Positions 10,760 through 24,187 of a DNA stretch of 64,000 nt are shown in pieces. The position numbers were made by a program, and so were the translations under genes. Location: contig JAKMEE010000022.1 in the NCBI GenBank assembly GCA_022426155.1, forward strand, positions 1-64,000. Direction: 5' to 3'. The notes under the pieces were generated by a model that saw only the letters and a list, made by a program, of their open reading frames with translations, searched no databases and had not been told where the DNA came from. This stretch comes from Candidatus Poseidonia sp. Its GTDB lineage: Archaea > Thermoplasmatota > Poseidoniia > Poseidoniales > Poseidoniaceae. Within the stretch, counting starts at the first letter, position 1; each line of letters begins with the position of its first letter.

Positions 10760-12331
10760 TCAATCAAGTTTGGCGGCGCGCTTAGCCCGTTTTTCCCCGA
10801 CCTCTCGCAACAACCGCTCCCTCAGCGCTTCATGCAACCACATGCCCTGTTCGAGTTCGAGCAGAAGCCCATGCTGAATCAAATTTTGAGGTGGTACTCC
10901 ATTCCAACCAACGGCGCGTGCCAACTCATCCCAAGCCAGCGGCTTATCGGCCAAAGCCAAGGTGGAGAGCAATTCCATTTCATCCACCGGAAGGCGGGTC
11001 AGAATTTCCTCATCGAGGAAACGCAACCAGTCAGTATGGGTGGGTTGGCCGTACAATTCCAAGAGTTCCAAAGCCAATGGATGGCCGCCCGTGGCGGCAT
11101 GCACATCCGGAATCGATGCCTCTTCGGTCATGCCGATTGAATTGATCCATGCACTGGTCGCTTCAAGGGACAATCCACTCAGTGGTAATTCTCTGACGAC
11201 ATCACGTGTATGGACGTCACGGCGGTCGTAAACATCCAACGTTGTTCGTGACACAAAGAGCAGCCTTAATGGGGCCCTTGTTGCAATCTGAAGCAAGGCT
11301 CCGAGCAGATGTTTTGACTGTTTAGCGACATGATGAATGTCATCTAACACAATGAGCCAATAGGGTGGTGGGCCCCCCGCTTCGTCTTTGAATCGCTCAC
11401 GAATGGTGTGGGCGTCAGTCAGGTAAGAAAGCAAACGTCTTCGCCAGGCATCAACGTTCATTTCAGCACCAGGCGTGAGAGGTAATGTCTCAATCAAATG
11501 GTAGGGGTCGTGACTTTCATCAATGCCAAATCGATGCAAAAGACTGGTTGCTAAGCCCAGAGATTGATCCCAGGGTTGACACGGATACCAGCAGACCGAC
11601 AAATAGGGGTTCGTTTCCATATGCTGAGCGAGCCAATGGGCGACAAGGGTTGATTTCCCAATGCCTGCAATTCCGTGGACGACCATGCATGGGCGTCGGT
11701 CTGCGAACCAATCATGCAAGGCCGTTAATTCTTCATCCCTGCCGTAAACGGGTCGAGTTTCAGGGGGTGTGTTGGCATAGGTAGCATGAGCCCCGACCAA
11801 TGGCATCAACCTGCCCGGGGCAGGGCCCACATGTTCATCATCGGGTTTCCGAATAGCTCCAAAGCGGATGTCTCCGTAGGTGAGAACGCCTTCGTGTTGG
11901 GCGTGCAGAAGCACCTGGAGAAGAGGCAATTCTGTTTCGAGATGTTCAACGGATTCAGAAGCTTTCACTTCCAACAATTCCCCTTCTTTGTTACGAATCA
12001 GTACCTTCGTTGAACGTAGGGCTTTGATGCGTTCTTGGGCGAGTGAGCGACCCGTATCTGTGAGTTGCCACGTTTTTTGTCGTCGTTCGTCACCTTGTAC
12101 ACTGCGCGTGTGTTCTTCCACCATGGCTTCTTTCAGAAGATTCCGCATAGTACGGCTCACATTTGGAGGGTGCTGGGCACATGCTTCCGCGATTCCAGGC
12201 CGAGTCAACGCTGGTGAAACCATGTATTTGTCCGCCCATGAATCAAAGGCATGAAGGTGGAGTAAAATCCGGTCTTGAGCGGCCACATTGACCTTTGGAA
12301 TGTCTCCGCCCATGATGCTGTGAAAGGGCAT
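10760..12331 (-). CDS. Winged-helix STAND/NB-ARC-type ATPase regulator
   Basis: A 523-residue protein. Residues 20-110 look like a winged helix (SPALTRPGIAEACAQ, VSRTMRNLLKEAMVEEHT, WQLTDTGRSLAQERI). This is followed by a linker and a P-loop NTPase: Walker A GIAGIGKST (220-228), Walker B WLIVLDD (325-331) and the sensor strand LLFVSRTT (357-364). The C-terminus is helical with a second winged-helix-like segment. This arrangement is that of STAND/MalT-like signal ATPases or archaeal AAA regulators. It is divergent from the WD40/TSP3 surface gene, and the spacer holds a tandem 18-bp repeat that could be its operator. An in-frame Met at codon 7 is an alternative start. The ligand is unknown. Confidence 0.7.
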   Translation of the reverse strand: MPFHSIMGGDIPKVNVAAQDRILLHLHAFDSWADKYMVSPALTRPGIAEACAQHPPNVSRTMRNLLKEAMVEEHTRSVQGDERRQKTWQLTDTGRSLAQERIKALRSTKVLIRNKEGELLEVKASESVEHLETELPLLQVLLHAQHEGVLTYGDIRFGAIRKPDDEHVGPAPGRLMPLVGAHATYANTPPETRPVYGRDEELTALHDWFADRRPCMVVHGIAGIGKSTLVAHWLAQHMETNPYLSVCWYPCQPWDQSLGLATSLLHRFGIDESHDPYHLIETLPLTPGAEMNVDAWRRRLLSYLTDAHTIRERFKDEAGGPPPYWLIVLDDIHHVAKQSKHLLGALLQIATRAPLRLLFVSRTTLDVYDRRDVHTRDVVRELPLSGLSLEATSAWINSIGMTEEASIPDVHAATGGHPLALELLELYGQPTHTDWLRFLDEEILTRLPVDEMELLSTLALADKPLAWDELARAVGWNGVPPQNLIQHGLLLELEQGMWLHEALRERLLREVGEKRAKRAAKLD

Positions 12332-12378
12332 GGTTGTTCAAAACTTCCTCATCATCATGCAATCACTCTTTTATTGGG

Positions 12379-12387
12379 AATTATATG
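12379..12387 (-). promoter_or_regulatory. Candidate TATA box for the STAND regulator
   Basis: On the minus strand, CATATAATT lies about 50-55 bases upstream of the start at 12331. It borders the first copy of the tandem repeat, so repeat occupancy could block it. Confidence 0.35.
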
Positions 12388-12388
12388 T

Positions 12389-12424
12389 TTGAGCAATTAC
12401 ACAATATTGAGCAATTACACAATA
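12389..12424. repeat. Two perfect tandem copies of an 18-bp repeat (operator candidate)
   Basis: TTGAGCAATTACACAATA occurs twice back to back (12389-12406 and 12407-12424) between the divergent STAND regulator and the WD40/TSP3 gene. Each unit contains an imperfect dyad TTG-n3-AATT-n3-CAA. Around the second copy the arms extend to TATTG...CAATA (12405-12424). The location directly before a TATA-like sequence suggests binding sites for a dimeric regulator. The neighbouring STAND protein is the obvious candidate, by inference. Confidence 0.6.
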
Positions 12425-12427
12425 AAC

Positions 12428-12437
12428 CTTTTATATT
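12428..12437 (+). promoter_or_regulatory. Candidate TATA box for the WD40/TSP3 gene
   Basis: CTTTTATATT lies about 25 bases before the ATG at 12456. Archaeal transcription normally starts 22-27 bases downstream of the TATA box, so the transcript would be leaderless and begin near that ATG. This supports 12456 over the in-frame ATG at 12441. Confidence 0.45.
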
Positions 12438-12455
12438 GAAATGTGTCCGATATTC

Positions 12456-15400
12456 ATGGCAATCAAGAATGGAACCATTGTGGCCAGAAAAAATCACGCT
12501 ATTTTTCTGTCTCTTTTCTTTGTAACGGCCCTCTTCTTGCCGACCGCTTTCGCAGCAGATTCTGATGGGGATGGTGTTGAAGATAGCCTCGATGATTGCC
12601 CTTGGGCATCTGGCAATTCAACGGTTGATCGAGACGGATGTCCCGACAGAGATGGTGATGGGACTTCCGATTTGAACGACGACTGGAGCATCGACAGCCC
12701 AAATTTCCAAAACGAATTCACCACAAGTTCTAGCGATGACTACAATGCGGTTGATTATTCTCCTAGCGGTGAATTTATCGTAACGGGTTCGGAAAACAGT
12801 TTCGTCCGAATTTGGAATGCAAGCACATGGACCAATGTGCGTTCGGTGAACACCGGGACCGATGTGAACGATGTTGCTTACTCTCCCGATGGGCAATACG
12901 TGGCTTCAGCACGCGATGACGATAGCATCGACATCTATTACAGCAGCAACCTCACTTCCATTCACGGCAGTATTAGCGTTGATGTCGGAGGTGGCGACCA
13001 AGTGAACAGCGTTGAATTTTCACCCGATAGTTCCAGTGTTGCCGTTGCGATCGGACGGTCGGGCAACGGTGGCACAAATGGCGAAGTCGCCGTTATTGAT
13101 GTCCTTACTGGATCGGAGCTTTTCGCGGTGAATCCAAATGGCGAAGACCGATTCTATGACGCCACATTTTCTCCTGATGGAAACTACATCGCCATGGCAG
13201 GAAACAGCGACATCTACATCGTCAACACCTCTTCGCAAGCAACCACTTGGACCTTCACCAACCCGCCAGGTGCCGTCAATGCCATCGATTGGTCTTCCGA
13301 TGGCAATTACATCTCAATGTGTGGTGGTTGGGAAGGTAGCGGATCCAGTTTTGATATGTACAAATACAGCAATGGCTTTTGGACAAGAATTTGGGAAAAA
13401 TCCATCACGACTTCCTGTTACGCAACCGATTTCTCTGCCGATAGCAGTCAGGTCGGGGCAGCCATGGGTTGGTACGGGGGAGACGGTGCAACTGCACGAA
13501 TCTTTAGCACAGACTCTGGCGTTCAAATCGACTCCTTTGGCGGGCCACGCCCCGGTGGTTGTTCTTCAGGTCAAAACAACCAATGCGGCCAAATCGAAGG
13601 TATAACTTGGAGCCCAGACAGCACTCATATCGTAACCGCGCACGGACGAAATGATGAGGGAGTCTACTATTGGTATGCCGCTATTGATGCGGATCAAGAT
13701 GGCTATAACACAACTGACCAAGGCGACGGAGTTATCGATGCATTCCCTGATGATGGGACACAATGGAATGACACCGATAATGACGGATATGGAGACAATC
13801 AGGCCCCTGCCTTCCAACCAGACGCTTGCATAACGGTCGCTGGAACATCCACTGAAGACCGATTTGGCTGCCCTGATGGCGATAGTGATGGCTGGTCCGA
13901 CCAAGGGGATTGGGACCCAAACGATGAGAAGCAGTGGTCCGATGCAGATGGTGACGGTTACGGCGACAATTATTACTTTGATCTCAACGATTATCAGATT
14001 CACCTCAACCAGAGCGGAGATGCTTTCCCCAACGATGCAACACAGTGGAACGACACCGACGGAGATGGTTATGGAGACAACTACGTCAATGCATCATGGG
14101 ACGACGTGCGCCCATCCGAATGGCCAGGTTTGCTCGTTTCAACCGCCAACAGCATCGACGCATTCCCTCTTGACCGCACCCAATGGATGGACTCTGATGG
14201 GGACTGGGTTGGAGATAACGAGAACAGTGACCGTCCAGACGGATGCCCCAATACCTGGGGCGATTCAATCTTTGACAGACTTGGTTGCGCTGATTCAGAC
14301 GGAGACGGATATTCCGACCCGACTCCAGGCTGGCCAGCCACCACTGATTGTTACGGTGCTGATGCATTCCCTAACGAACCAACTCAATGGTGCGATGAAG
14401 ATAACGACGGTTATGGAAGTAATCAAAGCGGCAACGAGGCCGACGTTTGCCCAAATCAAGCTGGAACATCCACTATTGATCGTATTGGGTGCTCGGACCG
14501 AGACGGTGATGGCTATTCCGATGCTGGCGACCCATTCCCTGATGATGCCACTCAATGGGCCGACCGCGATGGAGACAATCGTGGCGACAATGCTGACGGC
14601 AACAATCCCGACGCATTCCCTGATGATACAAGTCAATGGAAGGACACAGATGGCGACGGTTACGGTGATAATCCCGGCGGAAATAACGGCGATTTGTTCT
14701 GGAGCGACCCGACTCAATGGTCTGACGAGGACGAAGACGGATTTGGCGATAATGCGAATGGTACCAACGGAGACGTTTGTCCACTTGAATTCGGAGAATC
14801 GACCATTGCAGAGACACGAGGTTGCCCCGACACCGACATGGACGGTTACACCGATCCTATTGACGCGTTCCCGAACGATGTCTTCCAATGGAGCGACACC
14901 GATGGTGACGGCTATGGAGACAATACCAATGTCCCCAACGGTGACGATTGCGTCGATGTCTTTGGAAAGTCAAAGGAGTTAGGCCGACTGGGATGCCCTG
15001 ACGAAGACCTTGATGGTTACGCCGATGTTGACGATGCCTTCCCCATAGACACTGAACAATGGTCTGACAGCGATGGTGATGGTTATGGTGACAACTATTT
15101 CTACGAAAACATCACAGTTGCGGATGAAGAAAATGAGGGCATGTTCCTCATTCTACGTGAACAGCGCGGTGACGCTTTCCCCGACATCATTAGTCAATGG
15201 TCAGACATCGATGGCGATGGATGGGGGGACAATCAGTCCAGTTTCAACCGGCCCGACAACTTCCCATTGCGGGCCTCCCAATGGAACGATTTCGATGGCG
15301 ATGGCTACGGTGACAACACCTTCTACACGCCAGTCGATACGCCTGACTTGGAATCTCCCTTGCCTTCATACCAGCCCGATGAATGTACAAAACAACCAGG

Positions 15401-15914
15401 TACTTCCAATGTTGATGTTTTCGGGTGCCTTGATTCGGATAGTGATGGTGTTTCTGACCTCAACGACCCCTGCATCTGGGACCCTGAAATCTTCGAAGGA
15501 GCACGTGGTTTGGTGAAGTGCAGCATTACGGCGGACCCAACCATTACAGCCAATGACGAAAAGGAGGAATCAATTCTCTCTAGCAATCTCGACACATTGC
15601 AAGTGATGGGGGGGGCGATAATTTTCCTGCTCACACTCATTCTTGTTGCTCAAATGGCACGTACTGCTGGTAAGCGTAAGGCCATGAGGGTGAAGATGGA
15701 TGAGCGTTTGGTGGATGAGGCCTTCGGTGAAGAAGAAGAACGCCGACAAGCATGGATTCAACATTACCTCTCGGAAGGTAATTTCGCTGAAGCTCGATCT
15801 CTTGGTTGGTCCGGTGATGAGAATCTGCCGGAATGGAAGAAACTCGAAGTTCAAGAAGAAGCCGCTCATCAAGCAGCAATCCCCCAAATGCCAAATTTGG
15901 ATGATATGTTGTGA
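12456..15914 (+). CDS. Giant secreted WD40-propeller/TSP3-repeat surface protein, C-terminally anchored
   Basis: 1152 residues. The signal peptide is MAIKNGTIVARKNHAIFLSL followed by a hydrophobic core ending TAFAAD. Two Asp-rich TSP3-type repeats follow, then roughly residues 80-410 form a WD40-like propeller (NDVAYSPDGQYVASA, YDATFSPDGNYIAMA, EGITWSPDSTHIVTA). After this come about 19 further calcium-binding repeats of the QW-D-DGDGYGDN kind, interleaved with Cys-containing units (PDxCPxxxGTSTxDRxGC). A membrane helix near the C-terminus (VMGGAIIFLLTLILVAQMA) is followed by a basic then charged cytoplasmic tail. The repeats are expected to bind calcium outside the cell, and adhesion or cell-cell contact is a guess. 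It precedes a membrane-bound winged-helix protein on the same strand. The start is set by the TATA spacing and signal peptide. Confidence 0.85.
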   Translation: MAIKNGTIVARKNHAIFLSLFFVTALFLPTAFAADSDGDGVEDSLDDCPWASGNSTVDRDGCPDRDGDGTSDLNDDWSIDSPNFQNEFTTSSSDDYNAVDYSPSGEFIVTGSENSFVRIWNASTWTNVRSVNTGTDVNDVAYSPDGQYVASARDDDSIDIYYSSNLTSIHGSISVDVGGGDQVNSVEFSPDSSSVAVAIGRSGNGGTNGEVAVIDVLTGSELFAVNPNGEDRFYDATFSPDGNYIAMAGNSDIYIVNTSSQATTWTFTNPPGAVNAIDWSSDGNYISMCGGWEGSGSSFDMYKYSNGFWTRIWEKSITTSCYATDFSADSSQVGAAMGWYGGDGATARIFSTDSGVQIDSFGGPRPGGCSSGQNNQCGQIEGITWSPDSTHIVTAHGRNDEGVYYWYAAIDADQDGYNTTDQGDGVIDAFPDDGTQWNDTDNDGYGDNQAPAFQPDACITVAGTSTEDRFGCPDGDSDGWSDQGDWDPNDEKQWSDADGDGYGDNYYFDLNDYQIHLNQSGDAFPNDATQWNDTDGDGYGDNYVNASWDDVRPSEWPGLLVSTANSIDAFPLDRTQWMDSDGDWVGDNENSDRPDGCPNTWGDSIFDRLGCADSDGDGYSDPTPGWPATTDCYGADAFPNEPTQWCDEDNDGYGSNQSGNEADVCPNQAGTSTIDRIGCSDRDGDGYSDAGDPFPDDATQWADRDGDNRGDNADGNNPDAFPDDTSQWKDTDGDGYGDNPGGNNGDLFWSDPTQWSDEDEDGFGDNANGTNGDVCPLEFGESTIAETRGCPDTDMDGYTDPIDAFPNDVFQWSDTDGDGYGDNTNVPNGDDCVDVFGKSKELGRLGCPDEDLDGYADVDDAFPIDTEQWSDSDGDGYGDNYFYENITVADEENEGMFLILREQRGDAFPDIISQWSDIDGDGWGDNQSSFNRPDNFPLRASQWNDFDGDGYGDNTFYTPVDTPDLESPLPSYQPDECTKQPGTSNVDVFGCLDSDSDGVSDLNDPCIWDPEIFEGARGLVKCSITADPTITANDEKEESILSSNLDTLQVMGGAIIFLLTLILVAQMARTAGKRKAMRVKMDERLVDEAFGEEEERRQAWIQHYLSEGNFAEARSLGWSGDENLPEWKKLEVQEEAAHQAAIPQMPNLDDML

Positions 15915-15973
15915 TCTTACTACACATCGTTCGTACCGTTGCCCTTTCAAGGGAGAAACCCCACTCCTCGCGC

Positions 15974-18562
15974 ATGCGAGAGGGGGTTTCAGCACGCGTG
16001 GCCTTGCTGACAACTCTCCTGCTTGTCTCACTCTTGGTTGGCTTTTCATCGGCTCAAACGTCACAAGTTCGTCTTGAAGCATCTTTTTCAGAGCCTTCTT
16101 CAACACCTTGGTTTGAACCAGACCAGCCTTTGACTATCACACCCTCGCTGGTCAATGATGGGCCCGTAACATCCGTTGAAAATGACCCTTCATGTGACGT
16201 TGTCCTGATGGTTTACAACGCAACGGATGTGTTGGTGAATGATGGAACCGAATCGTGTCGAGGCGTAACTCGAGGCATGGACTTGTTCGAAGGCGAAACT
16301 CGTACGATGGACCAACGCGTTTGGGACATGAAAGACTCCGAAGGAAACTGGTTACCCAGTGGAGAATACACCATCCAAGCCTACCACCCAACCTCAGGAC
16401 TTTCCGTCTCGACCATGGCGATTGCTCAAACTCCCGTTGATATCCCAGAGGTCTTGTCGTTTCATGTAGAGCGGGCAGAACGTGTCGAGGGAGTACAAGG
16501 TCCCGAAGTTCTTCTGGTGAATGTTCACAACCCTACGTCTCGTTCAGTGGATCTTTCTGATGTTCCTGTCTGTTTCATGGAATTCTCTCACAATGAAGTA
16601 GCACAACTGGCCATGCCATGTTTCGGGGGCGTCACTTCGATGATGCCCAATGAAATGCTTTACCTCGGCCATATTCTTCTCGATGGACAAGACGATAGCA
16701 TTGTTTCATTGACAACCCCAGGGGATGGATTTTCTTATGTTGAAGAATTTACCGCTTCTCTAACTCCCACGGCTGATATGCCCATGAACGTGGCAATGGA
16801 TGCAACATCCAAAAACGTCGAGAAATATGCAAATGGTGACGTTCTTGCACCCTCCTTGATGCTTTCCAGCACTTCAACCGAACCCTCAACTCTTGAATTC
16901 ACATCCTCATGTAAAGCTGAGTATTGGGTGATCAACGATTTAGGAGATGTTGTGTTTGACAGCCGAGCAAACAATCCATGCCAATCAATTGACCTTGAGA
17001 TGGAATTAACTCCTAGTACCCCACTAGAATTTCCTTTACCTCAATGGAGTTTCCTTCAAACCAACGGTTGTTCAATCGCTCCTGGCGCCTACACCATGGT
17101 CGCTGAATTACCTGAATTTGGATTGAGCACCAGCATGGCATTTGAATACGGGGCGCCATTCGAAACTCTTTGTTTGGAAGAATCTGAACTTTCGTTGACA
17201 AGCACTTCCCATCAAGAAACTGAATCGACCCTCCTCGTGAATCTTACTTTGGAGGGAAGTGTATTCGCCGAAACATTACGAATGGCTGAGCCGTGTGCCG
17301 TCGTTATGAAATTTTACGATGAAAACGCCCTCCCCGTTCACCAATTCCGAACCCTATGCGACGATTATGATGGAAGAAAATTGATGATTGGATTGGACGA
17401 TGAATCTGCAGCCCTCACCTTCCCGACCGTTCAGTTCTCCGTTCAAGAAAACGGAGTGGACGTGTTGCCAGAGGGGCAATATCGCGTTGATGTATCGCTT
17501 GCAACCGTCCAAGACGTGGAAACCTCATTCAGTTTGCAATGGCCGTTCGAGCAGGAAGAAATAACTGCTGAAATTGAAGAGGAGGTTTTGGACATCGAGA
17601 CCTTTGAGATCGCAGGTCAATGGGTGGGCCTACTCACCGATTCAGGAACTTGTTGGGTGATGGAGACACAAGGCACGCAATACATGCTTCATGATGCACG
17701 AACATTGGGAAGTTGGACTCCAACCTCAGAGGTCAATGGAATCTACACCGTTTATCTTACAGAAAGCTCCTCTGAATGTAGTGGCTTTTCTGCCCCGTCC
17801 GTTACAATCACAAAAGTCATCATGGAGCAGTCGCTTGAGGCTGTAGTTGCAGACCCAGAACCCACAGAACCAACAACATTTGAATTCGAAGAAGAAGAAA
17901 CACCTCCCGTTGTCCAAGCTGCAGCAGCCGTTGCTACTGCCTCCATCCTTTCCATCTTGTTACTGGTGATGGTCAATAACGAAAGTCTTCGAATCCCAAC
18001 CACCGTTGCTGGGCTCTGGTTCCTCGGCTTGATGGGGAAGACGCACGAAACAACCGATGGGCGATACCAACGCGGTCGTTTAATGGGATATCTTACAGCA
18101 AATCCTGGATGCCATTTCCGAGCACTCATGGCTGCACTAGACATGAGCAACGGCCAGATCACCCATCACCTTCGCATTCTTGAAGCAGAAGAAAACATCT
18201 GGCGAAAGAAGGATGGACGCTTGGTACGATATTATCCAATCACCAATCAATTGCACCCCAGCATGCCCGATGAAGCCCTACCAGTCCCCCCACTCTCACC
18301 CGACCCGAACAGTTTGCAAGGCAAGATTCTCAATCTTTTGGACTCCGATGGTCAATTGGGAGACTTCCCCACTCAAGCAGAGTTAGCAAAACGTTTGGAG
18401 AAGAGTCAACAATTGATATCACATCACCTCCGAACACTGCAAAAATACGGCTTGGTTGAACGCAGAAAGATGGGTGTGAAGAACCGTTACAAATTGACAA
18501 GAGAGGCCATTTTCCTCTTGGAATCTAACGATGACTTTTCCCAAGACCCCGTTGACGCATGA
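15974..18562 (+). CDS. Membrane-anchored sensor-like protein with two cytoplasmic winged helices
   Basis: 862 residues from the ATG at 15974, which begins a clean signal peptide (MREGVSARVALLTTLLLVSL then LVGFSSAQT). A GTG at 15911 overlaps the previous stop (GTGA) and would add 21 residues, so coupled translation is possible. The exported part has three Ig-like/BsuPI-like units (each ending in patterns such as LPSGEYTIQAYHP, IAPGAYTMVAELP, LPEGQYRVDVSL) with paired Cys. One membrane helix lies at about 644-672. Inside are two ArsR-like winged helices: GCHFRALMAALDMSNGQITH at about 715 and AELAKRLEKSQQLISHHLRT at about 805. The layout suggests a one-component transmembrane transcription regulator. 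The co-oriented TSP3 surface protein upstream may be its partner or target. Confidence 0.75.
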   Translation: MREGVSARVALLTTLLLVSLLVGFSSAQTSQVRLEASFSEPSSTPWFEPDQPLTITPSLVNDGPVTSVENDPSCDVVLMVYNATDVLVNDGTESCRGVTRGMDLFEGETRTMDQRVWDMKDSEGNWLPSGEYTIQAYHPTSGLSVSTMAIAQTPVDIPEVLSFHVERAERVEGVQGPEVLLVNVHNPTSRSVDLSDVPVCFMEFSHNEVAQLAMPCFGGVTSMMPNEMLYLGHILLDGQDDSIVSLTTPGDGFSYVEEFTASLTPTADMPMNVAMDATSKNVEKYANGDVLAPSLMLSSTSTEPSTLEFTSSCKAEYWVINDLGDVVFDSRANNPCQSIDLEMELTPSTPLEFPLPQWSFLQTNGCSIAPGAYTMVAELPEFGLSTSMAFEYGAPFETLCLEESELSLTSTSHQETESTLLVNLTLEGSVFAETLRMAEPCAVVMKFYDENALPVHQFRTLCDDYDGRKLMIGLDDESAALTFPTVQFSVQENGVDVLPEGQYRVDVSLATVQDVETSFSLQWPFEQEEITAEIEEEVLDIETFEIAGQWVGLLTDSGTCWVMETQGTQYMLHDARTLGSWTPTSEVNGIYTVYLTESSSECSGFSAPSVTITKVIMEQSLEAVVADPEPTEPTTFEFEEEETPPVVQAAAAVATASILSILLLVMVNNESLRIPTTVAGLWFLGLMGKTHETTDGRYQRGRLMGYLTANPGCHFRALMAALDMSNGQITHHLRILEAEENIWRKKDGRLVRYYPITNQLHPSMPDEALPVPPLSPDPNSLQGKILNLLDSDGQLGDFPTQAELAKRLEKSQQLISHHLRTLQKYGLVERRKMGVKNRYKLTREAIFLLESNDDFSQDPVDA

Positions 18563-18663: not shown

Positions 18664-21486
18664 ATGACGGATGAGATTGCACCAGTGGATGAAGTTGCTT
18701 GGCAACGAAAATGGGACGAGGCTGGACTCTTTACCAGCAAGATTTCTGATGGAAAGCCATCTTTTTATTGCCTTGAGATGTATCCTTACCCCTCCGGTAA
18801 AATGCACATGGGGCACGTGAGAAATTATTCAATCGGAGATGCAGTGGCCCGATTCAAGCGTTTAATGGGCTTTGACGTTCTTTATCCAATAGGCTTTGAT
18901 TCCTTTGGAATGCCCGCCGAAAACGCTGCAATTTCCGAAGGGGGTCATCCTCACGAAATCACTGAACGAAACATGGCTTCCATCACTCAGCAAATCAAAC
19001 GCATGGGGTTCTCATACGATTGGAATCGAAGTTTGAAAAGCCATGACCCGAATTACTACAAATGGAATCAATGGTTTTTCATTCAATTCATGAAGATGGG
19101 GCTTGCAAAGCAAGAATTTGCGCCTGTGAATTGGTGCAATGACTGCGAGACCGTACTCGCTAACGAACAGGTCAAGGCCGGCCGTTGTTGGAGGTGTAAT
19201 GGTCCAGTTGAACAACACACCATGAATCAGTGGTTCCTCGATATTCCATCGTATTGTCAGGAATTGCACGATGGATTGGATACCATTCGATTCCCTGAAC
19301 ATGTCAAATCCCTTCAACGAGATTGGCTTGGCCGTTCAGAAGGAGCAAATATCTTGTTCAAAGTTCAAGACAGTGACACGGTTTTGGAAGTGTTTACCAC
19401 TCGTCCCGATACTCTGTTTGGGGCCACATTTGTTACGCTTGCCCCTGAACACCCTTTGGCAAAAGCGATGGTTGAAGGCACAGAATATGAATCAGAATGG
19501 ACCCTTCTTTACGACGAAGTTGCCAGCATGTCTGAATTTGATCGTATCAAGAACATGAAGAAAAAGAAGGGAATGTTTTCGGGACGCTACGCCATCCACC
19601 CTCTCACTGGCGAGGCCATTCAAATTTGGTTTGGAAATTTCGTCATCGCTTCCTATGGAACTGGAGCTGTGATGGCCGTCCCAGCCCACGATGAACGAGA
19701 TTTTGATTTCGCCACAACCTACGACATTCCAATCAAGCGTGTACTGGTGATGACAGAGGATGCTTCTGCTGACGCCTCACTTGAGGCTGCAGAAGTTGAA
19801 GATGGCTGGATGGTCCACTCTGGATTGGAAGGTTTTGATGGTCTTTACGGACAAGAAGCGAGGGACGCTGTGTGCGACCATCTCGAAAGCAACCAGATGG
19901 GTGAACGAGTGGTGAATTGGAAAATTCGGCCCTGGTTGATCTCACGTCAGAGGTACTGGGGAACTCCCATCCCAGTGATTCATTGCGATTCCTGCGGTAC
20001 CGTTCCCGTTCCCGAAGCTGATTTGCCGGTGGAACTACCTCGCGATGTTGTCTTCGGAACAGGCAATCCCTTGGAGACATCAGAGTCTTTCCTCAACGTT
20101 GATTGCCCCTCATGCGGCGAACCAGCGCGTCGAGAAACCGATACGATGGATACATTCATTGATTCTTCATGGTACTTTTTGCGTTATACCGACGCCCTAA
20201 ATCAAGAACAGGCATTTGAAAAATCTCTGGCAGACCATTGGATGCAGGTTGATTTTTACTGTGGAGGAATTGAACACGCTCAGATGCATCTCATCTATGC
20301 ACGGTTCATGACCAAGGCATTGAGAGATTTAGGCCTTCATTCATCGGACGAGCCGTTCGATCAGTTACTTTGTCAGGGGATGGTCAACAAAGCCGCGCCT
20401 TGGTGTTCTACCTGTAGCGTGACTCTCTCTGTTGACCACGAGGGTTCACCTTGTCCTCATTGCGATGGAGAACTTGCTATTCGTTCTGCCAAAATGAGCA
20501 AATCTTTGGGCAACACGGTTTCACCAGAGGCCATGATTGAGAAATTCGGTGCAGATACCGTTCGATTGTTCATTCTTTTCGCAGCGAACCCTACTGCTGG
20601 TATGGACTGGTCCGACACAGCGCTCGAATCAAATCACAGAGTGATGGTTCAAATGCGCTCGATGCCCGAACAATTACTTGGTTGGAAGGGGGCGGCAGGC
20701 CTCATGGATGGATGGATGCAGGCCCGTTTCAAACAACGACAACAGGCTTTCTTCACAGCGATGGAACACTACGATTTACGAGGCGCTGTAGAACTTTCTC
20801 ATTATGAAATCATCAAGGACATTAATTGGTATTTGCGCAGAGGCGGAAATAATTTGGAAATCGGGAAATCGTTGCTCAGGCCATGGGCTCAAATGATGTC
20901 AATATCAACTCCGCATCTTGCTGAAGAATGGTGGCAAACCATTGGAGAACCGGGGTTGGCGGCGGGCAGCGAATTTGATGTTCCCAGCGCGTTAACTGCA
21001 GATGAAAGTGCGCTTTTAGATGCCGAACAATACCTGCGTGATTTCCTCGAACACGCTCGTAAAATCCAGAACGTTGCAGAACGGCATTTGGGTGGACCTG
21101 CCCAATCCGCCACCATTGTTGTAAGCCCCTCTTGGAAACGAGAAATGGCTCAAGCAGCTCTCCAGCACATCGGGGATGGCGGCCATCCAAAACAATTCAT
21201 TTCCATCCTGTCAGAACATCCACTGATTCAGGAAGAGCGTAAAGGGGAAATGTTAGGCTTCTGGGGCAAAAAGATGCTTCCACAAGTCTTCAAGTGGGAC
21301 GACGCTTCCAAAATAGTCGTTGCTTCGTCCCTTGATGAACATGCGGTCATCGAAGAGCGTGCAGCCTTTATCGCCAATGAGCTTGGTCTCCAATCACTGA
21401 GTGTTGTCGTGGGTGAGGGTGAGCAAGACACAACTGGAAGAGCGAGTTCAGCGGTTCCGCTCTCTCCTGCAGTCGTCTTCGCTTGA
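18664..21486 (+). CDS. leuS: Leucyl-tRNA synthetase (bacterial type)
   Basis: A 940-residue class I synthetase. The HIGH motif is HMGH (48-51) in YPYPSGKMHMGHVRNYSIGD and KMSKS is at 610-614. The editing domain is present (TTRPDTLFGATF, then YGTGAVMAVPAHDERDF). A zinc-binding stretch VNWCNDCETVLANEQV...CWRC follows the catalytic start, exactly as in bacterial LeuRS. Archaeal/eukaryotic LeuRS has a different arrangement, so this appears to be a bacterial-type enzyme. A second Cys cluster (WCSTC...CPHC) sits just before KMSKS. It charges tRNA-Leu with leucine and proofreads. GGTGGTGA lies about ten bases before the ATG. The stop lies next to a convergent TSP3 gene. Confidence 0.95.
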   Translation: MTDEIAPVDEVAWQRKWDEAGLFTSKISDGKPSFYCLEMYPYPSGKMHMGHVRNYSIGDAVARFKRLMGFDVLYPIGFDSFGMPAENAAISEGGHPHEITERNMASITQQIKRMGFSYDWNRSLKSHDPNYYKWNQWFFIQFMKMGLAKQEFAPVNWCNDCETVLANEQVKAGRCWRCNGPVEQHTMNQWFLDIPSYCQELHDGLDTIRFPEHVKSLQRDWLGRSEGANILFKVQDSDTVLEVFTTRPDTLFGATFVTLAPEHPLAKAMVEGTEYESEWTLLYDEVASMSEFDRIKNMKKKKGMFSGRYAIHPLTGEAIQIWFGNFVIASYGTGAVMAVPAHDERDFDFATTYDIPIKRVLVMTEDASADASLEAAEVEDGWMVHSGLEGFDGLYGQEARDAVCDHLESNQMGERVVNWKIRPWLISRQRYWGTPIPVIHCDSCGTVPVPEADLPVELPRDVVFGTGNPLETSESFLNVDCPSCGEPARRETDTMDTFIDSSWYFLRYTDALNQEQAFEKSLADHWMQVDFYCGGIEHAQMHLIYARFMTKALRDLGLHSSDEPFDQLLCQGMVNKAAPWCSTCSVTLSVDHEGSPCPHCDGELAIRSAKMSKSLGNTVSPEAMIEKFGADTVRLFILFAANPTAGMDWSDTALESNHRVMVQMRSMPEQLLGWKGAAGLMDGWMQARFKQRQQAFFTAMEHYDLRGAVELSHYEIIKDINWYLRRGGNNLEIGKSLLRPWAQMMSISTPHLAEEWWQTIGEPGLAAGSEFDVPSALTADESALLDAEQYLRDFLEHARKIQNVAERHLGGPAQSATIVVSPSWKREMAQAALQHIGDGGHPKQFISILSEHPLIQEERKGEMLGFWGKKMLPQVFKWDDASKIVVASSLDEHAVIEERAAFIANELGLQSLSVVVGEGEQDTTGRASSAVPLSPAVVFA

Positions 21487-21487
21487 T

Positions 21488-24187
21488 TCAGGCTTCTTCT
21501 GAACCATCGTCTGGCAAGGTAATGTCGGCAGGACGCTTTGGTGGGTCAACATAGCGCGCTTCTGACTCCGCATTCGCTTGCCGATTTGTGATGAAGGCCC
21601 ATACTGCGATGAGGGCTGCCAGCAAGAAGACAAATTGGGTGAGGCCCCAAGTACCACTTTCCTCTGAATTACTGTTCGAGGTATCGAGTTTGATTGCACA
21701 CCCTCGTTCATCGACGACAGCGTTATCCAGGGTATTGAGACAGAAGTCATAGGCATTTTTCACACCATCTTCATCATCGTCAAGTTGGAATTCACTGCAT
21801 CCGTTCAGATTTACGCCAACATCTGTTCCAGTCGCTTGGCAGAGGTCAAGGGGGTCCAAAACCCCGTCTTGATCATCGTCATCGTCTTCAATGGCATCGA
21901 TGCAACCGTCCTGGTCACTATCTTGACCGCTCTGAGCCGTTCCAATGATGCCCCTAGGGCATCGGTCAAACGGATCACTGATTCCATCGTTATCGTCATC
22001 ATTATCCTCTTCTGCATCAAGACATCCATCGCCATCGTGGTCGCCCGAAGTATTGTTGGCCCAATTTGGCACACCGTACAAACAATCATCGTACATGTCC
22101 ATCACACCGTCTCCATCATCGTCTTCATCCATAGTAGAGTCCATGCAACCATCCTGATCGTAATCGTTGGCAGAGGTCGAAATCCACGCGTTGAGATCAT
22201 GTGGGCAGAGGTCATCGGGTATTGCAATACCATCTCCGTCTTCATCTTCATCGCAAGGGTCACCCGTCCCATCACCATCGAGGTCGGCTTGTGTTGGATT
22301 GGAGATGGATGGGCAGTTGTCAAGTTGGTCCACGAACCCATCTTCGTCAACGTCCACATCTGAGCAACCATCGGGTTCAACATCGTTTTCTTCGGTGGAA
22401 ACCCATCCTACTGGGCCGCGTGGGCAAGCGTCAAAGATGTCAAAGATTCCATCCTCATCATCATCAAAATCTTCAGAGTCATCTCGACAACCATCGCCAT
22501 CGTGGTCGGTGATTGGTTGACTGGTCCACCCCACAACGCCCAGGGAGCAATCATCTGCGAGGTCTTCAACGCCGTCTTGATCATCGTCATCATCACAAAC
22601 ATCGCCAAATACATCACCATCATGATTGGCTTGGTCGGTGTTTTCTTCCTTTGGACAGTTGTCTTCACCATCGAGTACACCGTCAGAATCCAGGTCTGTT
22701 TCATAGAGCCAGACACCCATGTCGTACGCATTTCTCTGGTCAAATTCATGCATACCATACATTCCGTCGTGATTTGTAAGGAAGGCTACAACGGGTGCAC
22801 CCGTTGCCCCAAACGCAAAGCTGGTTGGCATGTCGTTACCATTCCCCCCAGCATTCATAGCCCAATCCCATGTTCCATTATTCAATCGTTGGGCGAGGAA
22901 AATATCGTAATGGTTTCCATCGTTGATACCGTCTGAATCAGCGATTTCATTGGGTCCCAGAGAGAAGGCACCTGTGGCCATACCGACGATGATGGCATTA
23001 CCTTGCGAAGTCATTTCAATGCCAATGGCGTGTTCTGCCCCGCTCCCTCCAGACGCTACTACATCGACCCAGATGCCACTTTCTGAGAGTGTGGCATCGA
23101 AGAAATCGATCCAAGTGGCGTTTGGAGTGGTCAGTTCACCAAAGCTCATGTTTTGGTTGAAGTCACCCACTAATCGGATGCCGCCACCTTGCAATCCTGC
23201 GCAGTCACCAAGGGTGGAATCTCCGGGGCCACTTGCGCTTGCGCTCCACAGCCAGCCTTCATCATTGTAATGTCCGATGGCGATATCGATACCATCCAAA
23301 CCGATTTGTGGATGGATATCAAATACCACTTCTTGTTGAAATTCTAGGGCGAGATATGTCATTCCATTCCCGTCTTCACACAGAGCAAGATTCCCTTCAA
23401 GCAAACCTCCTGAAGTAATAGGGTGAGTAAACAGTAATTCTCCGATGGAGCTGTAACCAACCATGACCATTTGTTCATTTTCACCAGCATCAAAGGTTTC
23501 ATTTCCAATACTCAATGTCCCCCGATAATTGATCACAAAGTGTAGTTCATTGGTTGATGTCACCATCATTTCGTTGATTTTCAACTCGTAAGAATTTGAC
23601 ATTGATTCAGCCCATAACCACAATCCATCGGGACTTAACACCCCAAAGAAGAGTGCATTTTCATGGTCGGGGTCAGTTTTGTTGAGCTGCGGTAATTCAC
23701 CTAACGCCATGGTACAACCTGACAAATGAGTCAGGCCACAGAATGTTCCGCCAACTGCCACGTTTCCATCATCAAAGAGTTCGAGTGACGTGATGGCATC
23801 TGCCCCAGAACTTCCGCCCGATTGGGTTGTGTTCCAAGTGCCATTTTCATTCACCCAGGCAAGATAAAAATCTTCACCGAATTCCGAATCGTTACTGGAA
23901 TATCCTTCGACATCACCGTAAAACTCAATGTTTTGTTCAAAGGAGCCTGCAACCAAAAGACGGTCATCATTGAGCAAGACCATATCATTAATTCGTTCCA
24001 TGTTTGAACCACTCGCGCCCGCAAGCCAACCAGAAGTATCCACTTCGCCAGTCGCTTGAACGAGCCCTTCATCCAAGGCCAAATCCGCCGACTGATGGAT
24101 TGGTGCGACGCTTAGTGTAAGGAGCAGAACGGCCAGAATTGTCGTGAATTCAGCCAAGCGCATGATTCTTGGAAGGTTGTCCACCAT
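21488..24187 (-). CDS. Secreted TSP3-repeat surface protein with propeller-like N-terminus
   Basis: 899 residues. The signal peptide lies in RLAEFTTILAVLLLTLSVAP; the start at 24187 has GAGGT upstream and an alternative ATG lies at codon 9. About residues 45-520 are repeating beta units (NDMVLLNDDRLLVAGSF, TSLELFDDGNVAVGGTF) that look like a propeller of SBBP/FG-GAP kind. About 15 Asp-rich TSP3 repeats follow (DSDGVLDGEDNCP, DDDQDGVEDLADDC, DHDGDGCRDDSED), expected to bind calcium. A C-terminal membrane helix (LTQFVFLLAALIAVWAFI) and a short charged tail anchor it. It differs from the other TSP3 protein in this window in repeat wording, so the two are not a recent duplication. Function unknown; surface structure likely. 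Confidence 0.85.
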   Translation of the reverse strand: MVDNLPRIMRLAEFTTILAVLLLTLSVAPIHQSADLALDEGLVQATGEVDTSGWLAGASGSNMERINDMVLLNDDRLLVAGSFEQNIEFYGDVEGYSSNDSEFGEDFYLAWVNENGTWNTTQSGGSSGADAITSLELFDDGNVAVGGTFCGLTHLSGCTMALGELPQLNKTDPDHENALFFGVLSPDGLWLWAESMSNSYELKINEMMVTSTNELHFVINYRGTLSIGNETFDAGENEQMVMVGYSSIGELLFTHPITSGGLLEGNLALCEDGNGMTYLALEFQQEVVFDIHPQIGLDGIDIAIGHYNDEGWLWSASASGPGDSTLGDCAGLQGGGIRLVGDFNQNMSFGELTTPNATWIDFFDATLSESGIWVDVVASGGSGAEHAIGIEMTSQGNAIIVGMATGAFSLGPNEIADSDGINDGNHYDIFLAQRLNNGTWDWAMNAGGNGNDMPTSFAFGATGAPVVAFLTNHDGMYGMHEFDQRNAYDMGVWLYETDLDSDGVLDGEDNCPKEENTDQANHDGDVFGDVCDDDDDQDGVEDLADDCSLGVVGWTSQPITDHDGDGCRDDSEDFDDDEDGIFDIFDACPRGPVGWVSTEENDVEPDGCSDVDVDEDGFVDQLDNCPSISNPTQADLDGDGTGDPCDEDEDGDGIAIPDDLCPHDLNAWISTSANDYDQDGCMDSTMDEDDDGDGVMDMYDDCLYGVPNWANNTSGDHDGDGCLDAEEDNDDDNDGISDPFDRCPRGIIGTAQSGQDSDQDGCIDAIEDDDDDQDGVLDPLDLCQATGTDVGVNLNGCSEFQLDDDEDGVKNAYDFCLNTLDNAVVDERGCAIKLDTSNSNSEESGTWGLTQFVFLLAALIAVWAFITNRQANAESEARYVDPPKRPADITLPDDGSEEA

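Follow-up and report, generated by a model that had tools for sequence, protein, structure and literature searches.

Results

A 64,000-nucleotide stretch of Candidatus Poseidonia DNA (hereafter the window; positions 1-64000 of one contig of a 1.99-Mb genome in 48 contigs) carries a STAND regulator gene (A) and, divergently from it, the genes for a WD40/TSP3-like surface protein (B) and a transmembrane regulator (C) (Table 1). The original prediction proposed that these genes form one surface-sensing system. Judging from open reading frames, Pfam matches, and sequence, all three genes are present as it described them, and so is the tandem repeat between A and B, made of two perfect 18-bp copies; the range that it gave, 12331-18562, covers B and C and leaves the body of A (10760-12331) outside. 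The nearest named records of the A-B-C block belong to Ca. Poseidonia and Poseidoniaceae metagenome-assembled genomes (Marine Group II, an order in Thermoplasmatota). No account of this locus was found in the open-licence literature searched, a scope outside of which most subscription journals and bioRxiv lie. Conservation was followed in the best 80 of 178 relatives (named loci), in 59 relative genomes searched for A, B, and C, in 292 genomes from 22 genera of the order for full-length C, and in a phylum draw of 103 Poseidoniales genomes and 237 genomes outside the order.

Table 1. Genes, protein regions, and upstream elements at the A-B-C locus (window coordinates).
Feature	Position	Strand	Basis or remark
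A, PH0952/MalT-type STAND regulator (winged helix + NBD-HD-WHD)	10760..12331	-	Pfam, profile, fold model
Conserved A-side element, consensus TGTTCAAGACTT	12335..12348		Alignment of 24 same-genus intergenic regions
Perfect 18-bp tandem repeat, two copies	12389..12424	+	Sequence; single element in relatives
BRE/TATA-like core promoter of B (putative), TATA 26 nt before ATG 12456	12421..12437	+	Sequence, alignment
B, exported WD40 + TSP3-like surface protein with transmembrane segment and cytoplasmic tail	12456..15914	+	Pfam, hydropathy
B WD40 propeller head, exchanged cassette, residues 81-408	12696..13679	+	Pfam, head comparisons
B TSP3-like stalk, residues 409-1010, with most of the DxDxDG motifs	13680..15485	+	Motif count
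B transmembrane segment, residues 1048-1070	15597..15665	+	Hydropathy
B cytoplasmic tail, 82 residues	15666..15911	+	Hydropathy, genome search
C promoter element, CTTTCAAG box 22 nt before ATG 15974	15935..15953	+	Alignment
C, outside-in transmembrane transcription regulator (predicted)	15974..18562	+	Pfam, hydropathy, model
C ectodomain, residues 29-640: BsuPI/Ig-like sandwiches and juxtamembrane domain	16058..17893	+	Model, alignment
C transmembrane helix, residues 643-668	17900..17977	+	Model, hydropathy
C winged helix 1 (HTH_HVO_0163_N)	18062..18238	+	Pfam, alignment
C winged helix 2 (ArsR/HTH_24-like)	18308..18529	+	Pfam, profile, alignment
leuS, conserved flanking gene	18664..21486	+	Downstream of C in 79/80 loci

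B and C are a real pair, and A is separate from them. In 75 of the 80 loci, C has B upstream in the same orientation, and in the other five the contig stops less than 1 kb from C. Among the 59 genomes, A was found in 54, C in 37, and B at the locus in 36; B and C occur together in 36, and in the single genome with C and without B at the locus the contig ends there. A is considered separate because 19 of the 54 A-bearing genomes have it without B and C. One further genome, with A at a contig edge, is undecided for B and C (G005), and two lack all three genes (G012 and G028). In a genome of genus g5 (G033), leuS, a metallo-beta-lactamase (MBL)-fold gene, and A are kept, and B and C are gone from the locus. 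Independent occurrence of the genes in relatives, which the original prediction had named as evidence against itself, thus applies to A and not to B and C: the linkage of B and C stands, and A drops out as an obligate part of the proposed three-gene system.

C comprises 862 amino acids from ATG 15974, a start backed by homologues, which leaves 59 bp between B and C. Hydropathy marks hydrophobic segments at residues 3-30 (signal peptide) and 644-672, and from the signal peptide and the transmembrane helix we infer that the sensor lies outside and the winged helices inside. A second hydrophobic stretch after the helix, barely over the scan threshold and overlapping it, was kept as juxtamembrane. 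Pfam identified HTH_HVO_0163_N (53.8 bits versus a cut-off of 31) and HTH_5 (42.7 versus 22) in C. The ectodomain model is good, mostly 80-94 in predicted local distance difference test (pLDDT), and its domain 268-393 matches the Bacillus subtilis protease inhibitor 3isy (Z 12.6, 112 residues, root mean square deviation [rmsd] 2.6). All 12 ectodomain cysteines are invariant across 48 sequences. The predicted composition of exported Ig-like domains, one helix, and two cytoplasmic winged helices agrees with the original prediction. Compared with 47 relatives, C of the window is only 25-42% identical in the ectodomain, versus 81-97% in the first winged helix and 76-95% in the second; read from these alignments, C is a variable input (the ectodomain) with a fixed output (the winged helices). 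Full-length C was detected in 14 of the 22 genera and was not found in g5, g7, g8, g9, g11, g13, g15, and g21 among the 292 genomes.

A transmembrane transcription regulator (TTR) combines a DNA-binding domain with at least one transmembrane segment in one protein, and C is predicted to do so. Sequence and model together give good support to C being a TTR of inverted order, with the sensor first and the DNA-binding domains C-terminal. In ToxR/CadC-like TTRs, the cytoplasmic winged helix is N-terminal and the outer domain C-terminal; the domain order of C is the reverse of this, and C likewise does not have the architecture of ArnR, with its N-terminal HTH, HAMP domain, and two C-terminal transmembrane segments. 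The open-licence literature searched yielded no description of such an inverted regulator with tandem winged helices and a propeller receptor, which is not proof of absence.

B comprises 1,152 amino acids from ATG 12456, the earliest in-frame ATG being 12441, with hydrophobic segments at residues 13-36 (signal peptide) and 1044-1073. The WD40 match (PF00400) scored 68.1 bits versus a cut-off of 27. TSP_3 (PF02412) reached 15.5 bits versus a cut-off of 25, and 19 DxDxDG motifs were counted in total; we therefore refer to B as TSP3-like. Of the "giant calcium-binding surface protein" originally predicted, the WD40 repeats and the calcium-binding-type motifs hold, while B is large rather than giant and its TSP_3 score lies below the cut-off. 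Four B-bearing genomes each contain the tail of B once, two genomes without B at the locus do not contain it, and a B homologue (38% identity) elsewhere in G033, a genome without C, has no tail. By these searches, the tail is locus-specific. With G005, G012, and G028 set aside because the block is missing, TSP_3 matches number 10-31 per C-bearing genome versus 0-13 per C-less genome; genome size follows the same direction. A second TSP_3 surface protein gene (window 21488-24187; 64 bits versus 25) follows leuS and is kept there in most loci.

Comparison of 50 B proteins distinguished four types of propeller head and two types of stalk, defined as average-linkage clusters at 50% distance for heads and 35% for stalks, thresholds of our choosing. 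Stalks at least 70% identical were shared by 379 B pairs, 101 of which had heads less than 50% identical. For 44 of the 50 proteins, the head types require seven changes on a quick leuS+A tree versus a minimum of three. The clearest pair, from loci L152 and L162, is 37% identical in the head, 89% in the stalk, 87% in the tail, and 85% in the C ectodomain, and its identity breaks near B residues 81 and 405; between L152 and L204, the heads are 76% and the stalks 61% identical. These comparisons indicate that the propeller head of B is exchanged repeatedly on a conserved stalk, which is new here. Exchange of heads between lineages suggests that ligand specificity changes between lineages.

Conserved elements lie upstream of the three genes. 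Among 24 same-genus regions aligned, all 23 besides that of the window carry the B-side element, TTTGAGCA-n-CAAnAACCcTTTATA, singly or in diverged form, and the 18-bp duplication is therefore private to the window's genome; the five regions with a diverged element are those with divergent B heads. By this alignment, a single conserved element immediately 5' of the B promoter was doubled in this genome alone to give the repeat. Its 16-bp core has no other occurrence in the window at up to 3 mismatches. In L162, a similar B-promoter element was seen by eye to be duplicated separately, as an 11-bp tandem ~50-75 bp upstream of B at 600. Of the 24-column stretches compared, the C element TTTGCACCGCTGnCCTTTCAAaGG shows the highest conservation (1.78 bits per column); upstream conservation amounts to 1.44 bits per column for leuS, 1.36 for B, and 1.24 for A (24-26 rows). 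TATA-like boxes ~26 nt before the ATGs of both B and C suggest that the two transcripts are leaderless.

In six genomes, a search at 0-1 mismatches found no further copy of either the B-side or the C-side element, and on this ground the repeat was rejected as a regulon operator; weaker copies may exist. At up to 3 mismatches, with the six genomes pooled, the C-side pattern gave 57 matches versus 34 for its reverse and the B-side pattern 80 versus 30. The lack of close recurrence fits local or self-regulation, possibly with weaker sites elsewhere. An RNA hairpin in the B-C gap was set aside: the gap of the window folds, but its conservation fits a promoter box at a fixed 22-nt spacing.

The intracellular half of C also occurs in other settings. 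Short relatives of 330-374 amino acids in g8, g11, and g15 consist only of signal peptide, juxtamembrane domain, transmembrane helix, and both winged helices; they adjoin a lipoprotein gene, and the single lipoprotein scanned has PKD domains. Outside the order, C was matched in 18 of 237 genomes (E<=1e-15), and in the 11 of these whose match positions were listed the match is limited to the C-terminal part of C. Five such proteins were scanned and carry HTH_HVO_0163_N and a second winged helix on unrelated ectodomains (CARDB, NPCBM-associated, carboxypeptidase-regulatory, He_PIG, or DUF2330). In a distant member of Thermoplasmatota (G305; L229:2071-5131), the gene for a DUF2330-TM-tandem winged helix protein is preceded, 31 bp away and in the same orientation, by a beta-propeller gene (PF09826), an arrangement that may be read as a parallel to B and C. 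G033 has a 699-amino-acid version of the C-type protein with TSP_3 in its ectodomain.

A has a frame of 523 amino acids with the Walker A motif GIAGIGKST; its homologues begin at residue 7 of this frame, and translation probably starts at ATG 12313. AAA_16 scored 60 bits versus a cut-off of 32.6, and a profile built from 15 A proteins hits, over the second half, PH0952 of P. horikoshii at E 6.9e-15; between them, these matches cover the NOD of STAND proteins (NBD-HD plus the STAND-specific WHD). The winged helix is seen in the fold model (mean pLDDT 75.1), and the HTH families of Pfam match only weakly (HTH_20, E 0.004, under the cut-off). The prediction of a winged-helix P-loop STAND ATPase was thus borne out. 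MalT (8bob_C) is the top structural row for the model (Z 16.3, rmsd 11.9, 296 aligned), with APAF1 at Z 14.3 and many other AAA+ rows within ~2 Z units of MalT. A shares with PH0952/MalT the NOD, by profile match to PH0952, and the N-terminal winged helix, but it stops at the WHD, at residue 523, without the arm and tetratricopeptide repeat (TPR) sensor. According to the available part of one account, arm and repeat sensor are present "in most cases" of STAND proteins, so they are not a strict defining feature (PMC6468293). A lengths are similar across the whole order, and a paralogue in the window's genome (851 amino acids, 28% identity) carries TPRs. A is present in 98 of 103 Poseidoniales genomes and outside the order is matched in only 11 of 237 (E<=1e-30), in frames of 795-1097 amino acids; it is thus a core gene of the order, apparently after loss of its sensor. 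A split APAF1, with the STAND part in A and the WD40 part in B, was rejected because B is exported.

Where A occurs alone, it lies beside trx and rpe (19 of 19 regions). In six of seven such regions read further, A is just downstream of a gene for an exported protein of 605-623 amino acids; the one scanned is a secreted S15 peptidase (X-Pro dipeptidyl-peptidase-like) lipoprotein (L106:5214-8641). In the single locus without leuS after C (L199), the contig ends with C. Most loci have a B-C gap of ~50-70 bp; where an opposite-strand MBL-fold gene intervenes, the gap is mostly ~690-830 bp. The best NCBIfam name of this gene (L113:9124-9897, L110:3936-4703), below the cut-off, is hydroxyacylglutathione hydrolase. 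Directly after B, on the same strand, genus g12 has a gene for a PAS-HisKA-HATPase histidine kinase (L113:7885-9087; L112:7068-8279 by eye).

Discussion

Strict linkage, joint presence and absence, and the locus-specific tail of B lead us to propose that B and C are a receptor-regulator pair for surface sensing, a reading to which we give slightly less than an even chance. The variable ectodomain and fixed winged helices of C, the beta-propeller gene before a C-like gene in G305, the kinase gene after B in g12, and the higher TSP_3 counts of C-bearing genomes also speak for it. B would be anchored in the membrane and present an exchangeable WD40 head, the putative ligand-binding part, on a stalk of calcium-binding type. 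C would span the membrane once, with its sensor outside and, in the order given by sequence and model, two winged helices inside. Contact of the B head, or of the Ig-like domains of C itself, with particles or polymers would change the assembly of C in the membrane, upon which the paired winged helices might attach to DNA and switch promoters, among them perhaps the conserved ones before B and C. A would be a cytoplasmic STAND regulator encoded next to the pair but with a separate history; it may control the adjoining exported-protein gene and is not an obligate part. That C may relay an external signal directly to DNA, as originally predicted, and do so with no kinase, is well supported by its architecture; the coupling of C to B is what we infer.

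Several observations weigh against such a pair. B and C distances, with leuS and A controlled, correlate at only 0.00-0.12 (permutation p >=0.056), and the head swap between L152 and L162 came without a matching jump in C. In several genera, B and C are parted by an MBL hydrolase gene on the other strand. Because C has a promoter element of its own, the two may be transcribed separately. The cytoplasmic half of C is poorly modelled, so its winged helices rest on profiles. Archaellin and C agree in their presence in no more than 12 of 15 genera; a link to the archaellum was rejected, as g12 has C without archaellin and g5 and g9 have archaellin without C.

The missing co-variation of B and C beyond phylogeny would be expected if C alone sensed through its Ig-like domains and controlled B, a plain adhesin, as a target, with no physical complex of the two. 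The C family does exist without B, in the short versions of g8, g11, and g15 and in long ones elsewhere. By itself, this reading leaves unexplained the constant company of B and C at the locus and the conserved unique tail of B, and we regard it as rather unlikely. The linkage could also reflect only a stable gene order beside leuS and rpe, with A, B, and C functionally unlinked; leuS, rpe, trx, and a glycosyltransferase gene are indeed conserved in the region without an obvious link. However, B and C are present or absent together across genera while the flanks stay, and the g5 genome lost both, which makes a frozen order improbable. An obligate three-part system in which A acts jointly with B and C by binding the repeats, suggested by the divergent position of A beside B in 54 of 54 loci whose contig runs more than 100 bp past B, by the conserved A-side and B-side promoter elements, and by evolution of A with the C ectodomain beyond leuS (partial r 0.55, leuS alone controlled), was rejected as the leading reading and appears about as improbable, because A is independent of B and C, stays with trx-rpe and not with B, and faces a repeat unit that is single in relatives and without close copies in the six genomes.

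Compared with known systems, the proposed B-C pair combines familiar and unfamiliar features. TTRs were found in 367 of 404 archaeal species surveyed, and the available part of that survey describes co-component pairs such as ToxR/ToxS and TcpP/TcpH (PMC10269533). The original statement that no such system is described was therefore too strong for the C part. C shares with TTRs the DNA-binding domain and transmembrane segment in one protein, and some TTRs also have a partner; it differs in having the sensor first and two C-terminal winged helices, and in its putative partner, a large WD40/TSP3-like surface protein. ArnR and ArnR1 of Sulfolobus acidocaldarius, as portrayed in an excerpt of their description, are archaeal membrane-bound one-component regulators tied to surface structures as well, but the ArnR order is reversed in C, which has a large ectodomain (PMC6396743). 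Particle attachment in Poseidoniales has been proposed, with thrombospondin genes part of the case in the portion of the source available (PMC6461757). B would share this adhesion role within the same order, but adds a WD40 head, a transmembrane segment with a conserved tail, and the linkage to a regulator.

It is possible, if doubtful, that Thermoplasmatota use modular outside-in regulators with a fixed half of transmembrane helix and HVO_0163-type and ArsR-type winged helices under interchangeable adhesin-like ectodomains, coupled in Poseidoniales to B with its lineage-swapped WD40 head. If so, cells would re-target what they sense while the wiring to DNA stays unchanged. B and C look like a simple route from outside contact to gene control. 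Marine Group II was described in 2018 as being without cultured representatives, according to the part of the source available (PMC6461757). These archaea are abundant in surface waters, and a conserved receptor with a membrane-to-DNA regulator would give them a named, testable route for sensing particles or algae.

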